Shown: positions 34,417-60,800 of the stretch, in pieces
Layout of the letters: every line of letters begins with the position of its first letter
How positions within the stretch are numbered: the first letter of the stretch is position 1
Assembly: GCF_019059575.1 (NCBI RefSeq)
Contig: NW_024881535.1
Coordinates: forward strand, 62,001-126,000
DNA length: 64,000 bases
From: Amphibalanus amphitrite
Taxonomy: Eukaryota > Arthropoda > Thecostraca > Balanomorpha > Balanidae
Reading direction: 5' to 3'
Position numbers and translations under genes: made by a program
The notes under the pieces: generated by a model
What the model was told of the DNA's origin: nothing
What the model saw: only the letters and a program-made list of their open reading frames with translations
The model's database searches: none

Positions 34417-35585
34417 GTCCAAACAGCGCCTGCAGTAAGCTGCGGCCGACATTCACAGTTCCATAACCGACTTAACATCCATGGAATGCTTAGGAGATGA
34501 GCCTCGTTGCACGAAAACAATAGAATAAACCTAGCATAATCCCTCCGTAAAAGCTGCATTCCCTCCGTCCAATAAAAACCCAATGACCGCATCCCTCCAC
34601 TGCACATTCCCTCTGCAAATCATCGTTCCACTTGGCCGGCGCTTTTCACGGCACCTCGAACACCTCAGCAGTGCCCCGCCCAGGAGATTCCAGCTGCATT
34701 CCGCCAGCGTTCCTGACCCCCGCGCGTCCGGCACAGGCGGGGCTGGTCGAACGGAATCCCGGCGGGCGCGCGCGCCGGCGCCCGAGGCTCGTCTTGCGCC
34801 ACAGACGGCCGTCGGGCTGGGGAGCGGCCGGAACGCGCGGTTCGCTTTCATTCGGGCCGGACAGACGCTCTGCGCGAGGGCCGAAACTTGTCGGTTTCTC
34901 TTTCATCGAGTGCCGCCGATGGCCCCCGACGTGGGACGCTGTCATGACGCCGGCGAGGGAAACCGGCCCGGTCCCACCTACCTACCGTCCAGTGACGACC
35001 GAACGTCTGTCGTCAGCTGGAGACAGCTGACAATCAGTCGAAATCAGACAGACATCAGAAAATCAGACATCGTTCAGCCCTCATCGAAATCAAAGTGTTT
35101 CGCCATGGGCTATTTGAGAGTATTTAGGAAAATGGATAATGAGCAATGCTCGCCTTATGTTCGTGTTTAGTGTTTGCGCTTCAATTATTCAAATCGGAGC
35201 ACCACCCGAGCGTAAACCAATTACATCAATCTGAGACGGGCCAGATGTTGTTTGATTGACTCCAGATGTGTGCCGTCGGCATCGTTATGGACGTAATTGT
35301 GCGAACCAATGTCCTATATGTATATGCTTCCAACACAAAACATCAAATACTTCAAACAAACACAATCCTTCTGTGACCAGGTGCTAGGTGACGCTGCCAT
35401 TCTGTGTCAAAGGCTTAGTATTGGTCTTTATCGACTTCATAAAAGACCCGCTCAGGAATGTTAATTACGAACCCCGATTTCACGTATCCCGTCCTATTGC
35501 TGAACCGCCTCCCGTTCCCCAACATGTCCAACTTGCCCCGAACGGCGTAACCCATTCTGACGGTCATTTCTTCTTTCTTCCGCAG
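34417..35585. other. GC-rich 5' flank and intron of the mucin-like gene
   Basis: The part at 34560-35030 is GC-rich and open in several frames on both strands, including one of 195 codons with no recognisable motif. The part just before 35586 ends in a pyrimidine-rich tract and CAG typical of a 3' splice site, so at least the last few hundred bases are an intron. The upstream exon with the start codon was not located. Confidence 0.45.
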
Positions 35586-37614
35586 GTCCCGAGAGCGCTG
35601 GGTCATCCTGGCTGTCACGCTCGCCGTCCTGCTCCCCTGCACCTCCGCACAGGCGCGCTCCGCCAGCGTGCTCCAATGGAACCGACACGTGGACACAAGT
35701 AACAACTGGCGACCCGTATCGACACACCGAGACGCCTCCGTTTGGTCACCAGGAGGTGTCAGTCAAACGCAGCGCAGAGTCTACTACCCGACCCAGTACA
35801 GCGACTATGACTACGAGGATGAGGACGACGACTATGTGGCGGCGCCGACTCCCGCGCCCTATGCGTTCTGGGTGACTTCCCCGCGCACAACGACGGTGGA
35901 GAGGCCCGAGAAACAGCCGCTGCTGCTTGGAGAGAGCTTCTACCACGAGCTAGCCCGGCAGAGAACTTCAACTACGACGACCACCACCACAACCACTACG
36001 ACCACCACCACGAAGGCGCCGACGACTCGGACCACCACCACGACTACAACTGAGAAGGCGACAACCAAGAGCTCCTTCGAGAAGGAAGCGGCACCTCGGC
36101 CTTCGTCATACTCACAGTCGCCAACCACGAGTCTTCTGCAGCAGATCCTGCGTCGACCGGCGCCCGGACAGAAGCGACCCGACTTCTCGTCGCTGCTCGG
36201 AGCGCTGCTGGCTCCTCCGACCATCGACGACAGTCCTGACAACATCTCTGGGCCACCTTCGGCACATCTGGACAGCAGTAGTAATGCACCGACGAGCTCC
36301 TTCGCCGCGTTCTTGAGACGCACTACAAGGGCTCCGACAACGACCACGACCACGACTGAGAAGACGACCACACAGACGACCACGACGACTGAGCAGGCGA
36401 CGACGGAAGCCGGCGGGTCGACGACCACTCGACGACCTGGAGGGTTCCTCTCCAGCCTGTTCGGCATCCTGTCTCGTCCACGAAGACCGAGACCGACGAA
36501 AAAGCCTACATCGACGACTACAACGACAACAACAACGACGACTACCCAGAGTCCTACGACTGTTCGCAGACCTTTGGATAAAATCGACGCCGGCTTCCAA
36601 GTGCTGAACCAGATCTTCGGCGGCAGCCCGCTGGCGACAGCCACTAGGCCAACCACGACGGGCCAGGTGGTCAGCGAGTCACGCCCTGTCGCGCAGATCA
36701 CCCGACCGCCTCCTCCCACCACCACAACCACTACCGAACATCCACCTCGTCCCCATCACCCTCACCTGGTCGGGCGCCATCCGACGACCGTCCTGGCCAC
36801 CTCGCCGAGGTATCCCACCACGGTATACCCTACCCCGCCTCCGTACCCCAACTCCTCTCCCTACTACTACAATACCCATCACCAGGGAACCTCTCCGCAT
36901 CCATACCCCTTCTACAATCGTCCGCATCCTGTCGACAAGATTGACGGCCCGAGGCGTCCGTTCCGTAGACCGAACCCGCCGAATGTGCCGTTCTACTACA
37001 ACACGGAGCAGACCGATCCCGAGCCGCCGCCAAAGGTGAACCTGCAGCAGCTCTTCGGCAGCGTGGTGCAGCTGGTGAAGAGCGACGGACCCTCAATGAT
37101 GTCCGCGCTGGGTGATGCCATGGGCGCAGTGCAGGAGGGCAACTACATGGGAGCCATCCAGTCCGTGATGCCGGTGCTTGGACAAGCTACCCCGGTTATC
37201 ATGAACGTCATCAACACTGTGGGGCCCGCACTGGAGAAGTCAGATATCTTCGGCCAGGCTGTGGAGGGAGGCGGCCTCAACAGCCTTGTCACCATATTCA
37301 CCAACTCCCTCAACGGCCGGCCGCTGCCGCCGCGACCTCAAAGCTACGGCTACATAGACAAGAGTGACACGGACGACTTCAACCGACCCTACTACCTCGG
37401 CAGGATCATCGGCTCTGGCCTGAAGCTCGCCACCTACCTCATCAACTTCGGCTCGAGCGTGGTGCGAGCGAGGGACGCCGGTCGCGCTATGCCAGACTTC
37501 GATACAGTGGCCTTCGAGACGACATTCCAAGAGGAGATCTGCTGGGTACAGGAAGCGATAGGAGAAGAGAACCTCGCGTTCCTCAGAGACTGGGCGGACG
37601 GCAGGTTCCGGTGA
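35586..37614 (+). CDS. Secreted threonine-rich mucin-like protein (main exon)
   Basis: The exon follows TTCTTTCTTCCGCAG and starts with the last base of a split codon, so the initiator lies upstream; the first in-frame alternative (a GTG) is not a real start. From the first full codon there are 675 residues. Residues 5-23 (WVILAVTLAVLLPCTSAQA) look like the core and cleavage region of a signal peptide. A Tyr/Asp/Glu-rich stretch follows at about 67-82. Then come Thr-rich tracts near 127-160, 250-270, 307-322 and 377-384, of the kind that is heavily O-glycosylated. Between them are short hydrophobic segments followed by Arg-Arg, and a Pro/Tyr/His-rich part at 385-475. Residues about 484-675 look folded, with few prolines and several amphipathic helices. 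Secretion and extracellular function are inferred; I recognise no named family. The stop TGA overlaps a good 5' splice site (CCG|GTGAGA), so the protein may continue in a further exon. Confidence 0.75.
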
Positions 37615-42641: not shown

Positions 42642-42858
42642 TCACACATCATCAAACAGGTGACGCGCGTGTCTCTCCCAGTTAGCCTCCCAACCCTGAC
42701 TTCGGAACTCGCCAATACGCTGTCTGAAGCGGCGCCGCAGTGCTGCCATCTGTTGGCTGTGCGGAAAACCTCGGAACCAGGCGATCAGCTGCTCGGCGAG
42801 TTGGGAGGCGGAGTTGAAGACGAACCCGTTCTCGCCGTGCTCGACCAGTTCCGATAGG
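42642..42858 (-). CDS. ALG1: ALG1 exon 9 (terminal)
   Basis: 217 nt, after ATCATTTCAG, with TGA at 42642-42644. It encodes [20 protein letters not shown] and a C-terminal helical tail ending HLFDDV. The match to human LHELVKHEENGLVF fixes its identity. It is separated from exon 8 by a 3.6-kb intron. Confidence 0.93.
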
Positions 42859-45800
42859 CTGAAATGATGTCATAATAACGTCACAATACGGTAAATGTGG
42901 GTCTAAAGTGGATAAGGGGGAGAAGAATGACGTCATTATCAAAGGAGGAACGTGAAATAGGGTGGCTGGTAAAACAGCCAACGGTCCAGGTAAAACGGAA
43001 AGGTAAAACAGCCAACGGTCCAGCCGATACGCGCCCTATTTCCATTTTACCAGGCATAATGAAAGTAGTCGAGCGTATCGTACAAACTCAGTTGACTGAG
43101 TATTTGCACGCCCATGACTTACTTACTGCAGCACAGCATGGGTACAGAAAACTACACTCAACCGAGACAGCTCTCAGCGTCATCACTGACCGCATCCTAC
43201 ATGCTATGGACAATGCCGAAATTTCCATTTTGGTTCTTCTAGATCTTTCAAAATGTTTTGATGTCGTGCCTCACCAAAAACTCCTAGATAAACTTAGCCT
43301 GTACGGGATAGACACGGAATGGTTTAACAACTATTTGACGGGTCACGTGCAGCAGGTTACCGTACGAGGTGCTGACGGTTCCAGCATAACGTCCCGACCC
43401 AGAGAAAACAAAATCGGAGTTTTTCAAGGCGGGAGCCTTAGTTGTGTGTTATTCATGCTGTTCGCCAATGACCTGAGCCTACATTTGCCCGATGGCGTCA
43501 CCATTGTTCAATTTGCAGATGACACGCAAATTTTGGTCACCGGTAAGAAACGGGATCTGGCTACTATCATCTCACTCATGGAGACTGCCCTCGATAACGC
43601 TTACCAGTGGTTTTGTCACAACGGAATGAAAGTAAACACTGCCAAAACGCAGATGTTAGTTTTGGGCACCCCAGCTATGTTAAGGGGCCTCCCAACTGTC
43701 ACCGTTAACTTCTGCGGCTCTGTGGTGGGCGATGCCGGAACTGTGAAAAACTTAGGAATTCAACTCGACCGTCATCTGAATTACCAGGCACACATTGACG
43801 CCATGACTTCAAAATGCACCGGTATACTCATCGCCCTCGCCCACGCACGCCACGTGATGCCATCCAGCACACTGAGGTTTGTAGTGCAGGCCCTGGTTCT
43901 TTCCATTGTGCGGTACTGCATGAGTGTGTACGGGACGTGTGGTGTGACACAGATGACTCGCGTACAGAAAATCATCAACTTTTGTGCGCGGGTCGTCAGC
44001 GGTCGCAGACGCAGTGACCACATCTCCGATGTCATCGAGCGGTTCGGCTGGCTGCGAGCTGATGAGTTAGCCGAGTACCACACTATCTGCGCAGTCCAGC
44101 GAGCTATCACCACGAGAACTCCTGAATATATCAGTCAAACCATCGGTCCATTAGCCCGCGACCTACATGACCACAACACAAGGCACGCCGGCAGATTGAC
44201 ACAACCACGACCCCGAACCGAGACGGGGAGGCGCCGACTGTGTATCAGGGGGGTCTCGATGTTCAACGACATGAACTTGGATCCGTGTTTGCCATCGTTC
44301 CGTCGAGAGGCAAAAAACGCGATTCTTACCAGACGTCACTGAGGTGATATTGGTGTGAATGTCGTGTGCGTGATTTGTGTGTGCTATGATGATGCCATAC
44401 CATGTCTACTTACCCTATGTTTTATCGGTTTTATCTGCTTTACGTGTCAGGTGAAAAGCCACTTTTTGCTGTGGACCCTCGATGAATACATATCTGAATC
44501 TGAATCTGAATCTGGGTTGGGTGAGGTCCGGACAGCACACACTAATGGAACTTTATGTAAAGATGTAACGCCAGGGGACTAGTCATTTTCCATATCCATA
44601 CCGTTAGGTACTTGAAGTCGGATAAATAAGGCATCGATCAGCTTCATGTTAGAACATCGATAAGTAAAGAGAAATGAAGCAATACAACACCATAAAGAAA
44701 CGCACAAGCATGATTCATCGCGAGCCTTTCTTCAACTAAATAATCAAGCCAGATCACCATCCTACTGCCTTATACGCCGGAAACCCATTCCCAATGAGTC
44801 CCCTCCCTCCCCTGGCGCCCACACAGCGTATTGTTTACCGCAATGACGCTACAGTGTGCCGCCCACAGAACAAAACACACCCCCTGACCGCACGTCGCTT
44901 TCTGTCGGCTTTCGTTTTCAATCACTCTCCGCACGACGGTAGTCGTTCGTAACCGAGTAACCACAGACCGAAAATGAAGGCGTCATCGGCTCCCCCTCTC
45001 TCCCTCCCTCCGGGCCATCAACGCTAGCTCTCCCTTTCTTGGCAATAGTCCATTGCTTTTGGGTTGATGATTTATAGACGAAAGAACTCAAGCGAGGCGA
45101 GGGGAGGAGGGGGAGGGGGGTGGCACAGGGTAGTGACTCAGGCCCGTGACGCCTATCTGTGACGCTGCTCTGTGACGCTCCGTAACGGCACGCGTGACGC
45201 ACTGCGTAACGAGGTGTGACGCCCAGACAGTGACGGCCGGAGTATGACGGTAAGGGTGAGTATCGGACACTTATCGCAATATTTCTGTTCACATCATGAA
45301 CACACGATGTGTGTTACGGCGAAAAGACATAATAACCGGTCAGGGGTCGATCTGTAAGTAAGTGGGTACGAACAACTGATATTTTCCAGCAGAACATACC
45401 AGCAGTAGATGTTTTATGTTAGTGGCAGAATATATTAACTTTTGACCGAGGGATATATTATTTCTGGCAAGGTACACAGAGAAGAAAAACACAAGAAACA
45501 CATGCAGGCAGGAAAATAAAAACAATCACAACCAATGTTCTTACCATTCAGTTCCCACGTTCGTTCAATATCATCACGCTCCTATATTCCGACAGTCGCC
45601 CATCCTCGAAACCACACTACCCTCCGCCCCCGCAGTGACCGCCATCGGCTGTATTACCTTGCGACAGCGAAAGTGCGTGGAAATACGAATGTGCCTCCGG
45701 GTTTGGATAAGCTAAGGAGGAAGAATACAACCTGTCGCAACAGTGATTGTTTTGATAGTCTTTGTGATACGCCTTCAGCCATGAATGACGCAGTACCAGC

Positions 45801-48800
45801 CTATATTCAAACGACAAAACATGGTGGAATTGAATATGGGATGGGGTAGAGCAGCAATGCACAACGCAGGCCGAGTAAAATATCGGCGATGGAAATGAGA
45901 GAGGAAGACAGCATAGACGACAGACAAGGGTACATCGTCGTCTAGCCATTTGAACCCGAATCACACAAGGGCAGGCTCGGAGGGGAACGGGACGGTACCT
46001 AAAGGAAGGGACAGGGTTTAGCGACCCACCATTTGAAGTCGAAGGCGCAGACGGCCAGGTCAAGACAGTACATACAGGGTGGAAGTAAGAGTGATGGATA
46101 TGTGCCAGAGACCGGTAAATTGACCCGCCATCTGAAGCAGATGGCGCACACGGGCAGTCCGGGAGGGTCATCTGACGCACATAGGCAGGATGGTGGTAGA
46201 CTGGCAAGGAATTATAGACAGGGTTCCGCGACTCACCATTTGAAGTCGAAGGCGCAGACGGGCAGTCCGGGACGGGCTGATACGTTAGTATACGGAATGG
46301 ACAGTCAGTAGTGTAGCGATAGACATAGACTCACCATTTGAAGTCGAAGGCGCAGACTAAGAACTAAGAACGGTAGTGTAAGGAATTATAGACAGGGCTC
46401 CGCGACTCACCATTTGAAGTCGAAGGCGCAGACGGGCAGTCAGAGAGGGGATGATATGTTTGTGTGGGATGGAGCTGGGACTCACCATTTGAAGTCGAAG
46501 GCGCAGACGGGCAGTCCGGCGCCGAACATGTCCACCACCTTCATCGGCAGGTCCAGGCCGCTGGAGGAGGTGTGCAGGCTGACGCCCAGGTCCGCGCTGG
46601 CTGTGGGGACGGGAGGGGGTACAGTTAGCAGGTCCACACCGATGGAGGACGTGTGCAGGCTGACGCCCAGGTCCGCGCTGGCTGTGGAGACGGGAGGGGG
46701 TACAGTTAGCAGGTCCACACCGATGGAGGACGTGTGCAGGCTGACGTCCAGGTCCGCGCTGGCTGTGGAGACGGGAGGGTTTACAGTTAGCAGGTCCACA
46801 CCACTGGAGGACGTGTGCAGGCTGACGCCCAGGTCCGCGCTCGCTGTGGAGACAGGAGGGGGTACAGTTAGCAGGTCCACACCGATGGAGGGGGTGTGAG
46901 GGCTGACGTCCAGGTCCGCGCTCGCTGTGGAGACGGGAGAGGGCGCGCTCAACAACTGTAACCTACTGTGGGCGAGGAGAGTGACTGTCAGGCTTAAGTT
47001 GCCTGTGGGGACACGAGGGGGGATAGAATTGATGTGTGATGATGATGGCTTGTGATTTTAGTGCACAAGTTTTACGCTCAACACTAACAATATCGCGACG
47101 AAGTACAGAACCGTTATTGCTTTCCCTTAGCAATGCACCTGTCCAATGTCCATACCATATGATTCAATACATATAATGAAGTCATCGAAGCAAAGTAATA
47201 CAAAACCCTTGCTCTGAATATCGTAACAGCCTATATTTCAGTAGTTTCTTCGCCGACATCTTTCATCACTACACCTACATACAAACACCCACCACCCTCC
47301 ATCCTACACCCCTCCTCCCCTACTCTCCCCGCCTCCCACCCCTCTCACCAAGCAGCCGCGGGTAGTCCTCCTACTCCCCTACTCTCTCCCCTCCTCCCAC
47401 CCCTCTCACCGAGTAGCCGCGGGTAGTCGTCCTCCTCCCCTACTCTCTCCCCTCCTCCCACCCCTCTCACCGAGTAGCCGCGGATAGTCGTCCTCCTCCC
47501 CTACTCTCTCCCCTCCTCCCACCCCTCTCACCGAGTAGCCGCGGATAGTCGTCCTCCTCCCCTACTCTCTCCCCTCCTCCCACCCCTCTCACCGAGTAGC
47601 CGCGGGTAGTCGTCCTCCTCCAGCCACGGCGTGAGCACCTCCACGTGATTCCAGTGTTTGCGCTCCATCAGCTGACAGTAGAACTCTTTGAGCGGCCCGC
47701 GGCCCGTGATGACGCACACCAGCCGGGGCAGGTCGTGACCGCCCTCCTCCCTGGCAGACTCGTACTCTGGGGGGGGGGGGGGGAGGGGTCAGACCAGGAG
47801 CGGAGGCAGAGGCGTTCCCGACCAATATGCGTACTGTAAAGACGCACGAGCAATTATCAGCTGTCTAGGTCGTTATTTACCGTCAATCTACCCTGTGAGT
47901 AAGTCCATGCGACGGAGTGACCTGTTTTCATGTCCGATCCTTCTGGACAATTCTTATCATTCATCTTCCGAAAGTTTTCATTCTACCCATCTTTTAACAA
48001 GCGGATAAGCTTTTAGCGAGCGGAGGGGGAAATGCCTTCTCAATTCCCCTACTATCTCATTCTCATTCATTTCATCGTACTATAAAAGTCAACACCCACC
48101 CACTGCACAAACATACCCAGTGATATTCCTCTTCCCTTTCCGAACCAATTCCTCACACCTCTCACCTTGCAGGGCGTGCAGGAGTACGGAGAAGTCCTCA
48201 TCCTCGGTCCAGCTGGTTCCCGACACCAGCAGGCCCGGCCGGTCGTCGAACAGCGCCACTGAACCGTCAGCGTGACTGTGGGATCGGGAGAGGGAGTCGA
48301 TAGGGGGCAGTAGTGTGGGGACTCGGGGCAGCGAGTGTGTCGAGTGGGTGGGCGTAACTTCACTCGGAAAATGTAATAAGAACAGCAGATGCAAGAGCAG
48401 GTGTAGGATGAATATAAAAAACTCTTCTCAGGCCAAAAGAGCTTGCTCCCCCCCCCCCCCCCCATAAAAGCAAATATTTTGTCTTCATAATAGCGTCATT
48501 ATTTGAGAAGACGTGTCAGCTGATACTGAAATGCAATTGAACACCAGCTAACAATGGCAGTTGGCACCAGCTGGACTTCTGCTCATCAGTCTTGTTCCCC
48601 TCGTGAAGTGCGTACACCCCCTTGCCCCACTTTTCCCTTTAATCCCCCCCCCCCCCCAACAAAAAAAAAAACACCCATTCCACTACATCCTGCACCCTGC
48701 ATACCGTTCTGTGAATGCGGTCCTGTCCGGTACGGTGGTGCTGAACGCCTGGTAGATCTTCCCCAGTCTGACAAACAGCTCGTGGGTCTCCTCAGGTGGG

Positions 48801-51800
48801 ATCGGGTGAAACCGCGCCGCCGGACGGTCGTGAAGCGGCTCCGCGCTGTCGGGGGGGGGGGAGGGGGGTCATCATGGGGTCAGAGGTCAGGTACTGGGGC
48901 ACGTGGTCGAGCAATGGAGTCAAGAGGGTTAGGTAGTGATAACACACGGTAGGTACTAGGGTGAGAGGATATATTCTGTGGCCAGAGCAGAGGTCAGCTT
49001 TAGCACGTAGACAGGAATGAAAACACATAGGAGACTTGGCAAACAAGCGGACAATCTGGACCTCGCATGCGGGTTGCGAGTTTGCGGGTTTTAAGTTTGC
49101 GGGCATAATGCTAATTCATAGAGTGATTAGACCGTTCCCTTATGGTAACTTCGTGAATGCAGTGAAGCCGGTACACCTTCAGAAAATTACATATAGTCGC
49201 AATACCAGCGCAACGATTAACGAATCAAAATTCGACTTCAACGAAAAACCCGCAAACCTCGCAGACCTCGCAGACCTCGCAGCGAGGAAAATCGAAAGTT
49301 GACTCAAAATCAACATTTGGAATGCGATGCAAGGTGGCTCGCAAGCTAAAAACATGCAGACTCGCTTGTTAGATGGTAGTGTGGGTCACTCAGCTTAGAT
49401 TGTATTATTTAATTTTGAAGAAATCCGAAAACCCAAAAAATCGCAACCGGCATGCGAGGTCCAGTGTGGGGCGGCCTTTAGACAGCTAACCGAGCCACAC
49501 AAAAACGGATAACGTAAACAGAAACACCCACAAGGCCTTCTGCCGGGCAAGGATACGTAAACAAAACTCGCCAATCCCACGGCTGGTTATGTCATGTTTG
49601 GTGCGTGATATACAAGTGATCGGACAAAGGTTTCATGCTTCATACCAAATGTCTTTCACAAAGAAGAAGAGCATTAATGAGGAAATTGGGTAGCGAGGGA
49701 TGATATGAAGAGACAATGGTGCGCGTGCCTATGTCGCGACTATTGTTTTGAAGACAAGGAGAGATTCATGTCGACATCTTCTGTTATCGGTGTAATGTTT
49801 CAGACTGACCTTAGTTTTTTACATGACCTGACCTAGCCTCTCATTTGCTACACTCAGTACTCACACGACTCCCCAGTTTTTGGCCAGGTCCTGCTGCATG
49901 GCTCGAGTCACGCAGAGATTGGCATCAGCTCGGCGACCAAACACGCCTTCCAGCCACCTGAAATCGCCGTCACTGAGTCAGGCACGCGATAACATCGGAG
50001 TCAGCAAAGTTCGTGTTTGGATACACAATAGACTCAGGCTGATTGTGATAGCCAGACAGGAACATGGCCTTTTGTGAAATGGCATTCAATGAACATTGTT
50101 GGGGATTAATTTAACCGAGAATGTTGGAGCAAGTAGCCGCAAATCGCTCAGACTAACAGACAGTACTGAGTACGAGCACGAACGCAGTATGAGTACGAAC
50201 GCTTATTTGTCTTTGCAAGGTCAGAGTGAATATGAACGTTTGAATCCATCGTTAGCATGACTTTCAAAAGCGCCGGCTGCCGTTGCGCATCGTGGTTGCG
50301 CATAACATTGCATCTTTCGCCGTATCGTGTTTTATTGACGCAGATAATGAGGTTTGAAGCCCGTATCTACACCTGGTATCACACAAGCCGCTTCCGAGCA
50401 ACAACGAATGGCTCAGTCGGAGTATCTCCACAATCAGATCAAACTGATAAGCACATGAGATAGACCACAATACAAAGAAAGCTACGGTCTTATACCAAAA
50501 CAGCAAAATCACCTGTGACGAACTCAAACCAAGCATGACTTTCTGATGTTTAATATCAGCGGTGATGATTAACCTGACCACAACAGAGCTTTTCCTGGTA
50601 ACACGCTATCAAAATGTGCCACACACTATCAACAAGTTGTATCATAGAAATGCGACATACACAGCTGTGATGTCCATGTGTAGGCCTGCAGCCTTCGCAT
50701 CACAAGTCACAACTTTGATCAATGTCACATGTAACATAACATATTGACAATAAATGAGCCGGGAGCACTGCTTTTTGTTGTGGTTGTTGTTGTAATTGCA
50801 TTGTTCTTGTAGCGTCAAACTTTAGCGAGGATAGATTGAGCAAATACATAACTATTTTGAATATAGTTTCCTATTCTCTGGGTATTGTGTTCCAAATACT
50901 CTGCTCATATATCCCCGTTCTGTGAGACAACTATCACTGATGGACAGAAGTCTGTTCTTCTTGTTCTTGTTGAATTTGGGCGCACGGCCTCACCTGGTTA
51001 TATGGCCACGTACCTGGTGATTTTAACGAGGGGGCTCTGTCTCCCCACACTCAGCGCCATGATGGTGTAGGAGTAGTTGTGCCAGTCGACGACCAGGCGG
51101 GCTCGGCGCAGACGACAGGCCAGCCAGCACACCTGGCACGGCAGAACAGGGGGAGCGTCACTGGACGTCACCGTCACTAGTCGTCATCGTCAACTGCAGG
51201 TATCGAACGTCATCGGCACCGGTCATCGAGCGTCATCGACGTTCGACGAGATCAACTAGACCTGTGTGATAAAACTGAGTGTTCGTCAGGGATATGTTAG
51301 ATTTTATCTAGGCAGAAACATTCCAGAATTGTGGGCTTGCAGTTCAGCTCAGCGCATCATCATTTGGTGTCCAGCTGAATTTAGACCTTTTCTCACTTGT
51401 GCCAACCAACAAATTTGGAATATGGCTTCAACAGCTTTGGACCATGGCTTCATCAAGCAGTTATGAAAACACACAAGACACTCCTTAAAAATAACAAGCC
51501 TTAGAGCAGTACCCATTTCAGACTCTTGGCTACAATTATGCCTTATTAGGGGTATGATTAGAGTGCCATGATTAGTGTATGATTAGTGTGCATCATATTC
51601 ATAGCACTGACCGGCATAGCGGGCACTCCTGGGGGATTCTGCATCAGCAGACTGGAGAAGTGTGGCAGCGTCATCAGGATGATGAACAGCACCACTGCCT
51701 GCCACAAGGCCTTCAGCAGGTAGGCCAGCAGTCCTGGGCAGCCTGTGGGGTAACAAGAGGTTGGAGGAGCAGGCAGTCATCAGCTGAGTTCAAAGAGGGA

Positions 51801-52515
51801 GACCTGTGGGGTAGGTATTGAAGACACTCAATATGCTGAACCAAAGATGTATGATTATCAGCATTCTTTTAGAACTTTCCTATTATTAGCATTCTTTTAG
51901 AACTTTCCTAAGTCTTATGGGCTTATAATTAAAATATATTGGTTTAGTGTTTCTGCTAAAAATATTTAATCAGCAGGACACAACAAATGCAAGTTAAGAT
52001 AGATGTACAAAAATGACTACAACTGGAAAGTCATTGCAATTAGCAGGTTAACATTTATCTGACACACCAAGGGTAAAACATTTTAAATCATTTCAATTTT
52101 AATCATTTAAATCATTAGGTTGATCTTGTTAAGGTAAGCAGTAAACAAAATAAAAAAGCTCTTGTGCTTCTCAAGATTTTGTATCCCTATGTAGGTGCCT
52201 ATCCAAAATGAACAAAAATTGGTTGTTCTTACACAAGAAGCAGCACCCAAGAATGATGTAATAGAAGCTTATGGTTATCATAGCCCAGCCCTTCAACCCA
52301 CCTGATATCCATCCTGGCACCTGCCACAGCGGGTACAGAGTGGCCGAGCGAGCCACGGCCAATTTCTCAGCGTCCTTGCGCATGTAGCCCACCACGTCCA
52401 CGGGGTGTCCGCGGGAGGCCAGGGACTGGGCGTGGTAGCACATGCGCGGACTGCGCCCCACATCTCCCAGTACCACCACACACACTCGGCCTGGATGACG
52501 CTTCGTCACTGCCAT
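42642..52515 (-). CDS. ALG1: ALG1 beta-1,4-mannosyltransferase, nine coding exons
   Basis: ALG1 moves mannose from GDP-mannose to dolichol-PP-GlcNAc2 on the cytosolic face of the ER, the first mannosylation in N-glycan precursor assembly (GT33 family, GT-B fold). Reading leftward, exons at 52302-52515, 51612-51742, 51014-51132, 49865-49957, 48705-48845, 48166-48275, 47593-47766, 46486-46600 and 42642-42858 join in compatible phases into 1314 nt, 437 residues. The family motifs appear in order: [13 protein letters not shown] near the N-terminus, [52 protein letters not shown], then [18 protein letters not shown] and HGENG. Human ALG1 has 464 residues, and the shortfall is the N-terminal membrane anchor. 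A splice acceptor abuts the first ATG, so an upstream exon may supply that anchor. Nothing in the coding sequence is broken. Confidence 0.95.
42968..43023. repeat. 22-bp direct duplication at retroelement 5' junction
   Basis: A 22-bp sequence containing ACAGCCAACGGTCCAG is present at 42968-42989 and again at 43002-43023 (34-bp offset). Retroelement-derived sequence begins right after the second copy, so the duplication probably arose at the 5' junction of the insertion. Confidence 0.6.
43024..44514 (+). mobile_element. 5'-truncated CR1/L2-type non-LTR retrotransposon
   Basis: An open frame ending at 44342 encodes about 440 residues of reverse transcriptase starting at RPISILP. It has [33 protein letters not shown] and the catalytic FADD, then the thumb and a C-terminal tail. 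The endonuclease and N-terminal fingers are missing, so the copy is dead on arrival. The canonical GVPQGS box reads GVFQGG. The 3' end is four copies of a 6-bp TCTGAA unit at about 44492-44514, a tail type seen in CR1/L2-group elements. It lies antisense in the last intron of ALG1. The still-open frame points to a fairly recent insertion. Confidence 0.85.
44515..45130. other. ALG1 last intron, nothing further recognised
   Basis: Intronic sequence between the retroelement tail and the GTGAC array. No exon similarity or repeat was seen. Confidence 0.5.
45131..45250. repeat. Regular GTGACG array in ALG1 intron
   Basis: GTGACG/GTAACG motifs start at about 45133, 45146, 45159, 45172, 45182, 45194, 45205, 45216, 45230 and 45244, with a mean spacing near 12 bp. 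The bases between are not conserved. Either a decayed 12-bp minisatellite or an array of bZIP half sites. Confidence 0.7.
45251..45940. other. ALG1 last intron, nothing recognised
   Basis: AT-rich intronic sequence. No exon or repeat that I can support. Confidence 0.5.
45943..46518 (-). repeat. Tandem copies of ALG1 exon 8 donor junction
   Basis: The end of exon 8 plus its 5' splice site (rev. comp. of CACCATTTGAAGTCGAAGGC) recurs at about 46022, 46228, 46328 and 46404, before the real one at 46481. Two more diverged copies start near 45943 and 46121. Steps are 76-107 bp. Four copies keep GACTCACC, i.e. GGTGAGTC, intact as a donor; the 46022 copy reads GACCCACC. Between copies lies variable intronic sequence. 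Confidence 0.9.
46486..46600 (-). CDS. ALG1: ALG1 exon 8
   Basis: 115 nt, phase 1 to 2, acceptor CCCCACAG, donor AAATG|GTGAGT. It encodes [26 protein letters not shown] and LPVCAFDFK, the best conserved block of the family. Both edges of this exon are copied into tandem arrays in the flanking introns. The split TGC codon joined to exon 9 gives FKC as in human ALG1. Confidence 0.95.
46547..46951 (-). repeat. 81-bp tandem array of ALG1 exon 8 acceptor junction
   Basis: Exon 8's acceptor is followed upstream by four more copies with junctions at 46600, 46681, 46762, 46843 and 46924, exactly 81 bp apart. Each unit is about 27 bp of intron (ending CCACAG) plus 54 bp of exon 8 coding for [12 protein letters not shown](S/I)G(L/V)DL. 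Because 81 is 27 codons and no stop occurs, all copies share one open frame with exon 8. Confidence 0.95.
47317..47621 (-). repeat. 61-bp tandem array of ALG1 exon 7 donor junction
   Basis: Junctions at 47347, 47408, 47469, 47530 and 47591 are exactly 61 bp apart. Each unit has about 31 bp of exon 7's end with its donor (CTACTCG|GTGAGAGG) and 30 bp of pyrimidine-free intron on the - strand (GGAGGGGAGAGAGTAGG). The farthest copy has lost part of the match (TGCTTGGTGAGAGG) but keeps GGTGAG. Confidence 0.95.
47593..47766 (-). CDS. ALG1: ALG1 exon 7
   Basis: 174 nt, phase 1 to 1. The acceptor follows a run of about 14 cytosines (CCCCCAG). The exon encodes [15 protein letters not shown] and [17 protein letters not shown] and ends CTCG|GTGAGA. 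The last 31 bp or so, with the donor, are repeated in tandem in the downstream intron. Confidence 0.94.
48166..48275 (-). CDS. ALG1: ALG1 exon 6
   Basis: 110 nt, phase 2 to 1, after GATCCCACAG, donor CAAG|GTGAGA. It encodes [19 protein letters not shown] and [18 protein letters not shown] second CAG 17 nt further in was considered, but only this acceptor keeps the frame with exon 5. Confidence 0.94.
48705..48845 (-). CDS. ALG1: ALG1 exon 5
   Basis: 141 nt, phase 2 to 2. Its acceptor is preceded by a nearly pure poly-C tract ending GACAG, and its donor reads CG|GTATGC. It encodes [20 protein letters not shown] and ends RTAFTE(R), equivalent to the YDKPASFF and AFTER segments of human ALG1. 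Confidence 0.92.
49056..49464. mobile_element. MITE in ALG1 intron 4
   Basis: Inverted termini: CTGGACCTCGCATGC at the left pairs with GCATGCGAGGTCCAG at the right, and weaker pairing (GGTTGCGA, GGGTTTT) continues inward. The length is 409 bp without coding capacity. No clear target duplication was found. The inside holds CGCAGACCT in tandem near 49256-49280. Confidence 0.75.
49465..49864. other. ALG1 intron 4 remainder
   Basis: Unique intronic sequence with no further element recognised. Confidence 0.5.
49865..49957 (-). CDS. ALG1: ALG1 exon 4
   Basis: 93 nt, phase 2 to 2, after GCGATTTCAG and ending GTCGT|GTGAGT. It encodes [20 protein letters not shown] and [10 protein letters not shown], matching the family's FFGR...LCVT.AM..DL..NW block. 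Confidence 0.93.
49958..51013. other. ALG1 intron 3
   Basis: 1056-bp intron with GTACGT donor and GATTTCAG acceptor. GAGTACGA(A)C recurs near 50168 and 50192; nothing else recognised. Confidence 0.6.
51014..51132 (-). CDS. ALG1: ALG1 exon 3
   Basis: 119 nt, phase 0 to 2, after CCGTGCCAG and ending ACCAG|GTACGT. It encodes VCWLACRL followed by [13 protein letters not shown], the conserved DWHNY block of ALG1. Confidence 0.94.
51612..51742 (-). CDS. ALG1: ALG1 exon 2
   Basis: 131 nt, phase 1 to 0. Begins after TTACCCCACAG and ends CCG|GTCAGT. It encodes a hydrophobic segment (AVVLFIILM) and [10 protein letters not shown], corresponding to the membrane-associated hydrophobic stretch and QNPPG motif of the family. 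Confidence 0.93.
51743..52301. other. ALG1 intron 1
   Basis: 559-bp AT-rich intron, no insertion recognised. A 22-bp segment containing AGCATTCTTTTAGAACTTTC is repeated directly near 51860 and 51887. Confidence 0.6.
52302..52515 (-). CDS. ALG1: ALG1 exon 1 (first one found)
   Basis: Encodes 71 residues plus one base, from [10 protein letters not shown] through GDVGRSPRM to VPGWIS, ending CAG|GTGGGT. The ATG follows directly after TTTTACCTACAG, a strong 3' splice site, so this may be an internal exon. If not spliced there, the frame stays open upstream and adds a short hydrophobic run (LLFFFYL) that is simply the translated pyrimidine tract. Confidence 0.9.
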
Positions 52516-54826: not shown

Positions 54827-57800
54827 CTAGAGTTCTTCTACTAGTTTAGAGTTTATTATGAAGTCGAGTACCAAGTCTGTTAGTGTGGGGTTATCACCAA
54901 GAATGGTCGGCATGTCAAAATTTAGACGATGTAAAGCGAGGTACCTTGTGATGTGCCGGCGTTCGTTTCGGAATGATTGGCATCCGATTAGTAGATGTTC
55001 GACGGTCAGCCGTATGTTACAATTTTGACATACAGGCGGGCCTGCTCTGTCAAAAAGGTGACTGTGGGTGAGGCGGGTGTGACCGCATCTCAGCCTAGTT
55101 AGGATAACTTCTCTTATCCTGTTCGGCTGATTGCAAGTGTGCCAAATTCCGAGCCTTGGTTTGATCGCGTAGATATGTGGCGCGTGAGTTTGATTCCATT
55201 TTCGTTGCAAATACTCCGCAAACTTAATTTTGACTATGTGCAGTACGTCTCCATGCGCCATAGGTTCTATTACCGACTCAGGGAGCAGTGTAGCTTCCTT
55301 CGCAAGGGCGTCCGCTCGTTCATTACCAGCAATGCCGTGATGGCTGGGTATCCATAGGAAAGTAACATGCTGTGCTGCCGTCAGTTCCAGAAGTATTTCG
55401 TGGATATTATGGATGCCGTGATGGGTAACGTTTTCTTTCCGTTTGAGGGCCTGAAGTGTCGATTTAGAGTCAGTGCATATCGTAGCACGTTCGATATTTT
55501 CCGCTTTGATGTATGCGAGGACTTTTCTTATCGCATATACCTCTGCAGTAAAGATGGTGCTGTAATCAGGGAGGCGAGCTTTGAATTCGAATCCTTGTCC
55601 CACGGCTGCAGAACCAGCCTTATTCTCTGTGCACGAGCCATCGCTGTAGAAAAAGGCTGAATCGTCGTTTTGTTCCATGTAGCTTCGAAGAAGCATAACA
55701 CTCTCTAATGGTGATATATACTCTTTGCAGTCGTCGAAAAGAAATTCTATTGTTGGGTTTCTACGGGTCCAGAAGGGCGTAGGAGGGGGTTTGCGAGCAA
55801 CGTCAAACCGGCACATGTTGAAAGATGTGTGCGCTTCCTCAAGAGAATCAGGGAGAAAGCAGGATCCTCGTAGCGGTCGCCGCGTTCGAGGCTTTCTTCG
55901 CTCTATTGCGGGTATAGATAAGTGGTTTTGAACGCTTTTCGCACGATAGTAGTAACGCATTAGTAAGTAGAGGCGTCGGTCTTTAAGTGCAGGTAGGGCG
56001 GATTCTGCTCGTAGGGCGAGGACGGGGGTGGTACGAAAAGCCCCGGTTATCAGCCTCAGGCACGTAGACTGAACGGCTTCCAGCCTTTTGCACAATGTGG
56101 GCGAGATTGTGTTAAATAGATAGCAGTTGTATTCAATAGTTGATCTAATGAGGCCAATATACAACATCGATAGAGTTTTTCTGTCAGCACCCCAGGAAAA
56201 GCCACTGATACATCTTAGAACGTTAAGTCTTTTGATGCAACGTGTTCTTATGTGATCAACGTGAAGCCTGAAGGTCAGTTTTGAGTCTAGTATGATTCCT
56301 AGAAATTTATGAGACTCATGAAACGGAATAGCTGTTCCCTCAATTCGAGGCGAGTCATTCAGGGACGGGGGTGGTCCACGTTTGAAAACGATCATGGCAG
56401 ATTTGGGAGCAGATAGGAAGAACCCCCATTCCATGCACCAGTTGACGCAGTGGTCGATAGCTGCTTGGAGGATGAAGTACGCCCTCTTGTAATTTTTGTG
56501 TGTGACCCATAGAGCAATATCATCAGCAAACAAAGAATATCGTACTGAAAAAGTCAGTACGCGCGGGAGCGTCAGGAGGATATCGTTTAGAGCGATCAGA
56601 AAAAGCGTTGGCGACAACACACTACCTTGGGGTACGCCGTGTTCCATCGGGAAGCTGTCCGAATATGTCGTTTGACATCGAACTCGAAAAGTTCTGGGCA
56701 TGAGAAAGTTGCGTAGAAAAGCTGCCAGGTGGCCTTTAATTCCGAGGGAGTGTAGTTTGTAAATAATGGTGGAAGTATGTACCTTGTCGAAAGCCGCCAC
56801 GAGGTCCAGGAACACCGCGACGGTCGGCAGACGACGCTCCCAATTTGTTTGGACGTCAGTAATAAGACGCAGCACGTTATCCGCCGTGCTTCGGTCTCTG
56901 CGAAAACCACTTTGACAGCTGTCGATGATGCACTTGCTCTCAAGGAAGAATCGGAGACGTGTATTCACCATTCTCTCAAACACTTTGCAAATACAATTGG
57001 TAAGGGCGATGGGACGATAGGAACCTGCTAGGCTACTATCCTTACCGGGTTTGAGGATGGGAATAATTGTACTGCTAAGCCAGCCATCCGGAAAGGAGTC
57101 GCTTAGCCACATATCATTGAAAGCAGTCAAGAGTGTAGAGAGGTTTAATTCGTTAAGATTGGTAAAAAAGGAATAGGGAACACCATCTGGGCCAACTGAT
57201 GTTTTAGTTCTCGTCTTTGCTAGGGATAGTTTAAGTTCATAGAGGGTGAAAGGAGCGTTATAGGATTCGGAGTTTGTAGAGGAAAAGTCAAGTCGCGCTG
57301 TTTTTGCTGTTAGAGACCGGTGAACATTAGGAGAGTAGATATTCGAGGAAGATACGTCGGCGAAATGTTTTGCGAATAGGTTGGTAACAGCGAGTGGATC
57401 AGTTACGAAGACACCGTTGGAGAGCAGCTGTGGAAAGACTCTGAGATGGTTTTTTCGAGAAGCGAAAGAGCGCACATTTCCCCAAAGTTCGGCCAGTGGT
57501 GTGAATCTGTTACACTTGGATGCATACTCTTCCCACGCTGCCTTTTTTTCTGCGTAGATTACTTTAGAACATTCCTTTCGTGCAGCTGTGTATAGTTCCG
57601 CATGTCTATCGCAAATACATTTTTGAAAGTTTCGGAATGCTCTTTTTCTAATAGCTTTCGCTCGGTGGCATTTCCAATTCCACCATATTACATTTTTTGG
57701 CCTATTTGAAGAACCGGTTGTTACATTCTTTTCTCGCAAAGTCTCTTTGGCTGAAAGTACTACTGCGTTCATAAAGCTATCTACAGTTTGATGAATGCTA

Positions 57801-58564
57801 TTAGACGTATTGTGGCTTATACTCGTGTTAAATGCGTCCCAATTAGCGTTATTTGTTTGCCACTTTTTCAAAGTCGGCGCGCGAGGTAAAGTATTGCTAA
57901 TCGTAAGACTTATGTGGATAGGAAAATGATCGGAAAAGAGAGGATCTGAAGTTACATTCCAATTGAAGAGTGGTGCTACGCGGGGAGAAGCGATAGAAAG
58001 ATCAATCATTGATGTTGTGTGGTAACTATGGCTAAGGTATGTGGGCCTGCCACTGTTCAGGCACACCAGTGATCGCCGGTTAAGCTCAGCCTCGACTATC
58101 CTTCCGCGCGCCGACAAAAGCCGGCTGCCCCACAAAGGGTTGTGGGCGTTAAAGTCACCAAGAAGTAGACAATTATCAGGCATTTGAGCTAGCAATTGGT
58201 CCATAGCATGTCGTGTGATTAGAGGAGAGTTAGGTGGTAGGTAGAGAGAAGCAATTAGGATGTCGCGATTGAAAAGTGACACAGTAGCCGCTACGATGTT
58301 GAGTGGTGTAGTCAAGTTTGTTTGCCGTTGTGGAACTGCGTTAGCTATGTATAGGGCCACACCTCCTTGTCGATTAGTATGATTTATGTCGTGTCTATAA
58401 AGGGTGTAGCCAGAAACATTATAATTGTAGTTATCAGAATCCCGAAAGTGCGTTTCTTGAATGGCTGCTACGAGAGGGGATTCTTTCCGCAAATATTGTT
58501 TAAATTCAGATAGGTGCGTTAGCAGCCCTCCTACGTTCCACTGGAGTAGCATGTCCCTAGCCAT
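54827..58564 (-). CDS. ORF2: endonuclease / reverse transcriptase / RNase H
   Basis: A 1245-residue polyprotein that nicks target DNA, copies element RNA and removes RNA from the hybrid. The apurinic-type endonuclease covers about residues 5-220 with N10, E37 (QETHF), Y108, D137 and N139 (GDFNAH), D188 and S211-D212-H213 all present. RT spans about 500-770: SYRPIALTN, FRRDRSTADNV, FLDLVAAFD (D587), GVPQGSVLSP and FADD (D681, D682). RNase H covers about 970-1092 with D975, E1008, D1032 and D1085. A Cys/His segment (CGHTRLTHSHL...CQNC...EHLLIGC) follows at 1160-1195, as in I/Jockey elements. All catalytic residues are there, so the enzyme could be active. ORF2 starts 26 nt after ORF1, suggesting reinitiation of translation. 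Confidence 0.93.
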   Translation of the reverse strand: MARDMLLQWNVGGLLTHLSEFKQYLRKESPLVAAIQETHFRDSDNYNYNVSGYTLYRHDINHTNRQGGVALYIANAVPQRQTNLTTPLNIVAATVSLFNRDILIASLYLPPNSPLITRHAMDQLLAQMPDNCLLLGDFNAHNPLWGSRLLSARGRIVEAELNRRSLVCLNSGRPTYLSHSYHTTSMIDLSIASPRVAPLFNWNVTSDPLFSDHFPIHISLTISNTLPRAPTLKKWQTNNANWDAFNTSISHNTSNSIHQTVDSFMNAVVLSAKETLREKNVTTGSSNRPKNVIWWNWKCHRAKAIRKRAFRNFQKCICDRHAELYTAARKECSKVIYAEKKAAWEEYASKCNRFTPLAELWGNVRSFASRKNHLRVFPQLLSNGVFVTDPLAVTNLFAKHFADVSSSNIYSPNVHRSLTAKTARLDFSSTNSESYNAPFTLYELKLSLAKTRTKTSVGPDGVPYSFFTNLNELNLSTLLTAFNDMWLSDSFPDGWLSSTIIPILKPGKDSSLAGSYRPIALTNCICKVFERMVNTRLRFFLESKCIIDSCQSGFRRDRSTADNVLRLITDVQTNWERRLPTVAVFLDLVAAFDKVHTSTIIYKLHSLGIKGHLAAFLRNFLMPRTFRVRCQTTYSDSFPMEHGVPQGSVLSPTLFLIALNDILLTLPRVLTFSVRYSLFADDIALWVTHKNYKRAYFILQAAIDHCVNWCMEWGFFLSAPKSAMIVFKRGPPPSLNDSPRIEGTAIPFHESHKFLGIILDSKLTFRLHVDHIRTRCIKRLNVLRCISGFSWGADRKTLSMLYIGLIRSTIEYNCYLFNTISPTLCKRLEAVQSTCLRLITGAFRTTPVLALRAESALPALKDRRLYLLMRYYYRAKSVQNHLSIPAIERRKPRTRRPLRGSCFLPDSLEEAHTSFNMCRFDVARKPPPTPFWTRRNPTIEFLFDDCKEYISPLESVMLLRSYMEQNDDSAFFYSDGSCTENKAGSAAVGQGFEFKARLPDYSTIFTAEVYAIRKVLAYIKAENIERATICTDSKSTLQALKRKENVTHHGIHNIHEILLELTAAQHVTFLWIPSHHGIAGNERADALAKEATLLPESVIEPMAHGDVLHIVKIKFAEYLQRKWNQTHAPHIYAIKPRLGIWHTCNQPNRIREVILTRLRCGHTRLTHSHLFDRAGPPVCQNCNIRLTVEHLLIGCQSFRNERRHITRYLALHRLNFDMPTILGDNPTLTDLVLDFIINSKLVEEL

Positions 58565-58590
58565 AGCTAACTTTCTTCCTCTTTAGCCTT

Positions 58591-60195
58591 CTACGCGCTT
58601 TCTTCTGGAACGAAAGCCCGCTTGGTCACGGGTTGAGATCGGATGCCCATGTTTTTCCGCTCCCTTGATGACCGAGCTCGGAGGCGGGTGTTCGGTCGCG
58701 GATCGGGAAGGGTGGAAGTGTCAGATTCACTGTCAGAGGTGGCTGACGGTAGTCGTGACATTGGGGTCATGGCGAGTAGCTTCGGGGTTTCCTCGTTGTC
58801 ACTACTAGTGTTGGCGGAGTCGAAAGTGTCGTCATCGGAGCCAAAAAGTGGGCCTTGTGACGCTTTCGGGGCCTGGGTGTGGTGAGAGGCGGGGAACGGG
58901 GTCGCTTGTACGGGCACAGTGGGGGCCTCCGCTTTGTTTCTTTCAGGGCTGAACTGCGTCAGCGACTCGTCCCCAGTGTCGTTCTCGCTATACGTCTCCG
59001 TTCGGGCGTTTTCAGTGTTCGATGGCTGTTGTTTGGCGGGGGACGCGGCTGCGTTCGGAAGCATCGCTGTGCGCTGCTCTCTGATGATCGAGGTGGAGAA
59101 GTGTCCTTCCTCGCGCGGTGTTGGCGGACTCTGTCCCTCGGTGGTTGACGGAGGAGAGCTTGGCTCCTCGGTGGGTAATGGGAGTGAGTGATTCTCTTCG
59201 ATGGCCCTACCGGGTGGGCGCAGCTGCACGGTGGGCGGTGCGTGCGAGTGCTGGACTCCGGCGGACACTGCGGGAGGACGAGTCTCCTCTGGGGCCGGCA
59301 GGGGGGCATGAGGAGGGGACGCTTGGTTCGCGCTTGGCTGGGCCGGATCCGTTTGGGTGCCAGTGGTGACCGTGGATGGCCGATCCTTGCCTGTAGGGGC
59401 TCGAGGGGTCGGGAGGCTCGGCCACACGTCCGGACTCCTGGTGGTGGGATTGTGAGTCTCAGCACGGAGGGCGGCAGCCATTTCCATCCAGACAGGACAT
59501 TTTTTATCCGTCACAGGGTGTGGTCCCTGACATGCTGCACAGCGGGGCGGGGCGGTGCATCCTTCGGACGAGTGGTCCTCAGAGCAGCGTGCGCATCGAG
59601 TGCGGCTCCGACAGGTGTTTTTGCCATGTCCATACCTCAGGCACTGCCCACATCTGCGTGGTAGGGGGATACAAGGTCGTACCTCGTAACGTAGGAAGGC
59701 AGCGTAGAAGTGGGAGGGGAGGAGCATGGCAGCGAACCTGATTTTCAGCAGGGGACTCGGACGGTGGGTTTTTGATGGTAGTCGTGTAACCATGGTCACC
59801 CCTTGCATGACGCTTTCATCCAGGATAGCCTGAACTGACTCCTCCACAAGCTCAGGTGCATACACTAGCCCCTCCCGGTGGTTTAGCTTATCAGCTAGGA
59901 TGACCTGGATTTTCTTTCCCTCAATGGAAGACCAATTCAGAAGTGTCTCTGTCTGGGTGCGGTCCCTTGTTTGGATCAAGAGTGCACCACTGCGGGTTGG
60001 GGTAACCTTCTCCGGCCGTTTAGACAGGATGAGTTTTAGAGAGTCCCTGATTTTGTAGGGGCTGGTGCTTTTGAAGCTGAGGGTTTTATCTTCATACCGC
60101 ACCAGCAGAAATGCTGAACCCTCTGGCACAGTGGTCTGACTAGCTGAAGCTGTACTTCCAGCAGATCTGTTAGGATTGCCTGTTTTTGGTGGCAT
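58591..60195 (-). CDS. ORF1: zinc-knuckle nucleic-acid-binding protein
   Basis: A 534-residue gag-like protein that should coat element RNA. Three Cys/His knuckles lie at residues 182-233: CGQCLRYGHGKNTC (canonical CX2CX4HX4C), CARCSEDHSSEGC and CAACQGPHPVTDKKC. The first 170 residues carry the structured part; the C-terminal half is Pro/Ser/Thr-rich and probably disordered. It precedes ORF2 in the same orientation. The start ATG fits a short leader; other upstream starts were not needed. Confidence 0.9.
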   Translation of the reverse strand: MPPKTGNPNRSAGSTASASQTTVPEGSAFLLVRYEDKTLSFKSTSPYKIRDSLKLILSKRPEKVTPTRSGALLIQTRDRTQTETLLNWSSIEGKKIQVILADKLNHREGLVYAPELVEESVQAILDESVMQGVTMVTRLPSKTHRPSPLLKIRFAAMLLPSHFYAAFLRYEVRPCIPLPRRCGQCLRYGHGKNTCRSRTRCARCSEDHSSEGCTAPPRCAACQGPHPVTDKKCPVWMEMAAALRAETHNPTTRSPDVWPSLPTPRAPTGKDRPSTVTTGTQTDPAQPSANQASPPHAPLPAPEETRPPAVSAGVQHSHAPPTVQLRPPGRAIEENHSLPLPTEEPSSPPSTTEGQSPPTPREEGHFSTSIIREQRTAMLPNAAASPAKQQPSNTENARTETYSENDTGDESLTQFSPERNKAEAPTVPVQATPFPASHHTQAPKASQGPLFGSDDDTFDSANTSSDNEETPKLLAMTPMSRLPSATSDSESDTSTLPDPRPNTRLRARSSRERKNMGIRSQPVTKRAFVPEESA

Positions 60196-60800
60196 GTTTC
60201 CTCACTATGGGGTTTAAGCCAGGAGATGGAGCAATGTGATGGTGTGAGATACGAGATGAGATGTGGAACAGAGCAGTGAGCACAAGTACAAAATCAATGG
60301 AGCGAAGGCCGAAGAGGAAGGACAAAGATGAACCAGTTTGAAAAATTGACCAGCAGACTGAACCTAAGAGCAGGAGTAAGAAGAGCAAGAGCAAGAGATG
60401 ATAAATTAACTGACCAAGAAAATGGTGCCAAAAACCACGAGGCAAGGAACTGGAACAGCCACAAACAGGCTGTTATCCTAAACCTGAGTCCGAGATGGAG
60501 TTGAAAACTCAGGTGCAGTGGAAAAGTTAGGGAAAATGCCTTGAAGGTCCAGAAGTGAGAGATATGAAAAACGCTCTTTTTCCAAACGTGAGCGTTATCT
60601 TACCGTTGCTAGCCGAAAGGAATTTTCTAGAAGCCGAAACGCCGAGGGAAAGATCAGTGCTTTTTAAATACGGGGCCAGTCCTGGAACGCTCACAAACGC
60701 GCGGGCAGCCCTCTTTTTATCGCAGGAGCGATAAAAGGCAAGCGCAAAATGCAAAATGCAAAATGCAAAGGAAAAACTATCTAATCGCAAAAAGACCACA

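Follow-up and report, generated by a model that had tools for sequence, protein, structure and literature searches.

An 81-bp tandem array spans the start of the eighth coding exon of an ALG1 gene in a 64,000-nucleotide window (the whole stretch of DNA that was analysed) on contig C38 of an assembly of 807,550,619 bases in 2,644 contigs. It repeats the splice acceptor of this exon together with the start of its coding sequence, and two neighbouring boundaries of the same gene, the donors of exons 7 and 8, are repeated as well. Very probably these arrays are boundary minisatellites of the type described in amphioxus as mirages, tolerated because splicing would use the exon-proximal site and pass over the surplus copies, which would thus persist. 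Comparable arrays were found at exon starts in CCT and myosin genes elsewhere in the assembly, and this recurrence is more interesting than the in-frame acceptor ladder to which the original prediction had drawn attention.

The gene had been named as ALG1 and the affected exon as its eighth, and the analysis bears this out. A human ALG1 query matches the locus exon by exon in a tblastn search, the nine coding exons agree in phase and can be assembled into 437 residues and a stop codon, and the product contains glycosyltransferase domains in Pfam. By its sequence, the gene bearing the 81-bp array is ALG1, and the array lies at coding exon 8 of the model, which may lack an exon 5' of the first ATG. 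No second ALG1 copy was found in the assembly, where ALG1 matches contig C38 only. The model consists of the following parts:

42642..52515, reverse strand: ALG1 gene, with its coding sequence in nine exons
52515-52302, 51742-51612 and 51132-51014, reverse strand: exons 1-3 of the joined model
49957-49865, 48845-48705 and 48275-48166, reverse strand: exons 4-6 of the joined model
47766-47593, 46600-46486 and 42858-42642, reverse strand: exons 7-9 of the joined model

Intron 8 of this model also holds a reverse-transcriptase frame (PF00078) at 42879-44342 on the forward strand.

The acceptor repeats lie at the border of intron 7 and exon 8:

46547-46943, reverse strand: 81-bp acceptor array (Tandem Repeats Finder, TRF), with the working acceptor taken as 46600
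46944..47032, reverse strand: candidate decayed sixth copy, whose acceptor (47002) precedes the one at 46924 by 78 bp

Five equally spaced acceptors had been claimed, and they are real: TRF reports a period of 81 with 4.9 copies, 92% matches, 0% indels and a score of 661, which is far beyond chance. The acceptors at 46924, 46843, 46762, 46681 and 46600 follow one another in exact 81-bp steps, all end in CCACAG and are each followed by 54 nt of exon 8 or of an exon copy. The repeat unit agrees with its earlier description, joining 27 nt of the intron 3' end (TAAC, a pyrimidine tract and CAG) to the first 54 nt of exon 8. Compared with the 46600 unit, copies that lie progressively further from the exon have identities of 0.94, 0.90, 0.91 and 0.81. 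The candidate sixth copy, a feature absent from the original prediction, shows weak similarity except at the acceptor and a few exon bases.

The array was also said to stay open in the frame of the exon, and indeed all five upstream acceptors tried, including 47002, keep the frame to the normal stop when combined with the normal exon 7 donor. They could act as a functional ladder, whose use would lengthen the ALG1 protein by a single block of 27 residues or by several, and their near-identity to the 46600 acceptor across the last 20 intron bases speaks for such use. We nevertheless judge a functional ladder unlikely. When the 27-nt intron part of the units was shuffled, with the exon part and the CAG kept, 0.90 of the units stayed open, and multiplication by 1/3 for length gives a chance of about 0.30 that an 81-bp unit keeps the frame by accident. 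Because of this chance the frame-keeping of the array is not remarkable, and it is the least surprising part of the finding. In addition, the insert would adjoin a conserved block of the enzyme, and the frame is broken both in the adjacent 61-bp array over the exon 7 donor and, as described below, at CCT7, so that frame preservation does not set the ladder apart in the way that had been suggested.

Beyond the acceptor array, the donors of exons 7 and 8 are repeated, neither of which had been predicted:

47311-47621, reverse strand: 61-bp donor array of exon 7 (TRF, 5.1 copies, 96%)
47593 (working), 47532, 47471, 47410 and 47349, reverse strand: exon 7 donors in the 61-bp array
45940..46522, reverse strand: exon 8 donor 46486 and its six copies in intron 8 (blast of the boundary)
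46411, 46335, 46237, 46129, 46030 and 45947, reverse strand: ends of the six exon 8 donor copies

To each 61-bp unit the 3' end of exon 7 contributes 29 nt and intron 7 another 32 nt, and the sequence GGAGGAGG is present at both edges of the array. All 24 combinations that use a later exon 7 donor lose the normal frame or run into a stop, and the first donor alone preserves the normal reading on both counts. The exon 8 donor copies are spaced 75-108 bp apart, do not form a plain tandem array and retain the GT in four cases out of six (46411, 46335, 46237 and 46030). Thus three adjacent boundaries among the 17 of the ALG1 model are repeated within 1.7 kb, with different unit lengths (81, 61 and 75-108 bp); the other boundary matches are short and C-rich, or distant.

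That these repeats stem from misassembly, or from a mobile element or introner dispersed in the genome, is very improbable. Tandem arrays are prone to misassembly, and a published report describes one amphioxus mirage as aberrantly assembled (PMC3087553). However, substitutions distinguish the copies, and comparable CCT7 arrays stand on two different contigs. An introner or dispersed element would be marked by many genomic copies, whereas the array and its 1.7-kb surroundings each gave a single match, with no other in the 807.6-Mb assembly, in a search that skips simple and very common words.

Recurrence was assessed in 28 further regions with 134 exon matches, comprising 97 of 101 CCT matches, 31 of 100 myosin matches and 6 of 48 DEAD matches; CCT matches on C233, C689, C335 and C1157, as well as 69 of the 100 myosin and 42 of the 48 DEAD matches, fell outside this survey. 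The families were of our own choosing, the sample is small, and the edges are the ends of profile matches rather than annotated splice sites. Two loci of the PF00379 family (L010 and L011) were outside the array scan, no region was read for PF00501 (17 matches) or PF00071 (151 matches), and whole-exon repeats on L064, 817 bp apart, were excluded from the count of boundary arrays. The CCT subunits are named as judged from their sequences. The arrays found at exon starts are as follows:

L047, 4461-4722: CCT7 acceptor array, four copies
L048, 5053-5270, reverse strand: CCT7 acceptor array, three copies
L049, 1353-1449, L050, 1754-1853 (reverse strand), L057, 1985-2143, and L063, 1335-1468 (reverse strand): further exon-start arrays in CCT4, CCT5 and a myosin

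The CCT7 exon beginning GTATAACTTCTTCAGC is preceded by four acceptor copies on C1029, spaced 72, 73 and 71 bp, and the same exon, again starting with GTATAACTTCTTCAGC, has three copies spaced 71 bp on C1931. These two contigs may represent haplotypes or recent duplicates, as supported by a common neighbouring Ras match about 11-18 kb away. Many genes of the assembly are found on two similar contigs (for example C8/C391, C160/C461 and C1029/C1931), as if haplotypes of a variable genome had been left unmerged. Each of the five upstream CCT7 acceptors on the two contigs leads to a stop within 38 residues, and an intact protein therefore needs the last acceptor; these stops argue indirectly that splicing would proceed normally despite the repeats. 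The start of a CCT4 exon is present in two copies, with a spacing of 47 bp on C401 and of 57 bp on C887, and the two copies at a CCT5 exon are separated by 102 bp. Among the myosin exons, one has a 34-bp array repeating AG and a few exon bases, and another has a 31-bp array that merely abuts the acceptor.

Outside ALG1, arrays cover 7 of the 134 edges on the acceptor side, where 2000 random rotations of the array positions give an expectation of 2.2 (P 0.002), and none of the 134 on the donor side, for which the expectation is also 2.2. With one contig per pair the acceptor count becomes 5 of 92 against 1.8 expected (P 0.02), and on further removal of the abutting array it is 4 of 89 against 1.5 (P 0.044). 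When ALG1 is included, the acceptor count is 8 of 143 (P 0.003), and donors, at 2 of 143 against 3.2 expected (P 0.87), are neither noticeably depleted nor enriched. The acceptor bias raises the alternative that 3' splice sites of this genome are duplication hotspots, where a process linked to splicing or transcription would copy a single module that runs from the branch site through the pyrimidine tract and the AG into the exon. In the ALG1 units and most CCT7 units, the intron part opens with a CTAAC-like sequence, which resembles the branch consensus, or has one close to its start, as such copying would have it. We assign this alternative a low probability, given the small sample, the edges defined by profile-match ends and the modest count left without the abutting array. 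ALG1 itself has two donor repeats, which remove the donor deficit, and selection and C-rich tracts could bias arrays toward acceptors. It is likewise improbable that an acceptor hotspot was combined with a second, templated route for the exon 8 donor cassette; boundary repeats would in that case have had independent origins in lancelets and in arthropods and would supply material from which new exons and introns could form.

We favour instead the reading of the arrays as mirage-type minisatellites. In the proposed scenario, slippage or microhomology-mediated repair probably gave rise to a tandem duplication of a short stretch across an exon-intron border, and the arrays were then expanded and contracted by unequal exchange; the fall in identity away from the exon and the copy difference between the paired CCT7 contigs fit such exchange. 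Seen from the true exon, all copies lie toward the intron, and each has a splice signal that looks usable. Use of the exon-proximal site, that is, the last acceptor or the first donor (in ALG1, presumably acceptor 46600 and donors 47593 and 46486), would leave the mRNA unchanged, so that selection would maintain only the exon-proximal copy while the others decay as intron. The in-frame readings with 27 additional residues would then be a by-product of the 81-bp unit, yielding at most minor isoforms. The three neighbouring repeated boundaries, the presence of the same short sequence at both edges of the 61-bp array and the recurrence at CCT7, CCT4, CCT5 and a myosin exon support this scenario, as does the loss of the normal reading with every later exon 7 donor.

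Four observations weigh against it. First, when paired with the normal donor, every upstream ALG1 acceptor leaves the frame intact, as expected of a functional ladder. Second, the distinct changes in the exonic part of the copies, five nonsynonymous (36.7 sites) and four synonymous (14.3 sites), do not decide between coding and non-coding evolution. Third, the exon 8 donor copies have a common 29-nt core, matched at 29/29 positions in three copies and at 28/29 in a fourth, whereas the 40-nt linkers after the core have an identity of 0.41-0.62, compared with a mean of 0.49 and a maximum of 0.63 for shuffled sequences, with one pair at 0.74. Simple tandem duplication followed by drift is inadequate to explain a core that is kept among mostly unrelated linkers; the pattern could reflect conversion of the copies by the exon, selection in favour of decoy donors, or templated insertion that happened several times. 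Fourth, the excess of arrays at acceptors is not predicted by duplication that is blind to boundaries, though selection against other duplications might cause it.

The host looks like an arthropod, and the assembly has 150 matches above the cut-off to PF00379 (150 scored among 705 candidates), a cuticle family that we take as an arthropod marker. An amphioxus host, which the mirage literature had suggested at first, was rejected on account of these matches; a control with 0 of 14 well-known genomes matching adds little, since those that are named are prokaryotes. Amphioxus mirages are known from Adh3, the globin genes BflGb6 and BflGb9, PGBD5 and TnC (PMC3087553, PMC3902484; Adh and TnC as cited there). 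They are minisatellite-like, span an intron-exon boundary at either exon end, contain splice signals in many copies, have units of 10-160 bp and differ in copy number between haplotypes, with six and three copies in BflGb6 (PMC3087553, PMC3902484). The likeness extends to unit anatomy (the units here span the junction with 27+54 nt and 29+32 nt) and to the involvement of either exon end. It may extend to copy variation between haplotypes: the paired CCT7 contigs, with four versus three copies, may be haplotypes or recent duplicates, and ALG1 is present once in the assembly. The exon-proximal boundaries of ALG1 belong to an intact full frame with its domains, a property of the frame and not of RNA use. 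In amphioxus, the mirages of globin genes and Adh3 are reported to be harmless to splicing, which was checked there (PMC3087553).

The original prediction had called the ladder unusual. The repeated acceptors do carry coding sequence, as stated there. Boundary-spanning arrays as a kind were already published as mirages (PMC3087553). What differs from amphioxus is the arthropod-like host, the repetition of three adjacent boundaries within a single gene and the cassette-like exon 8 donor copies, in which the core is kept and the linkers differ. Two human cases provide a further parallel. In the CBS 844ins68 duplication, the more distal duplicated site is strongly favoured and the mRNA is normal, and the CBS 31-bp variable number tandem repeat c.1444_1467+7, by its name 24 exon and 7 intron bases, has 16-21 copies (PMC2630376). 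Unlike the arrays described here, these are single human cases, and 844ins68 is a polymorphism with one extra copy. Exon-proximal splice-site choice is proposed for ALG1 because CBS 844ins68, the amphioxus mirages and the CCT7 stops agree. Boundary or exonic repeats with splice motifs can also activate cryptic sites and form introns, as in human segmental duplications and at novel intron positions of Drosophila (PMC2812944, PMC2891723); intron positions or transcripts are changed in those cases, whereas the ALG1 exon and frame are intact and show no new intron. Literature searches on boundary repeats, some of them aimed at arthropods and with few subscription papers covered, listed no mirages from an arthropod, which is weak evidence of absence.

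Elsewhere in the window, whose GC content is 0.50, a non-LTR (long terminal repeat) retrotransposon lies at 54827-60201 on the reverse strand; its first frame is long, and its second encodes endonuclease, reverse transcriptase and RNase H domains. A long threonine- and proline-rich open frame of 687 residues at 35551-37614 is without a Pfam match, and a GC-rich degenerate 18-bp tandem array occupies 12357-13062. The window gave no hits to Rfam and none in a tRNA scan.

These observations add several genes of an apparent arthropod to the lancelet genes and the single human cases in which boundary minisatellites were known. With near-identical splice sites in series and differing copy numbers on paired contigs, the choice of the spliceosome among equal sites becomes testable, as does the frequency with which tandem duplication feeds new exons or introns.
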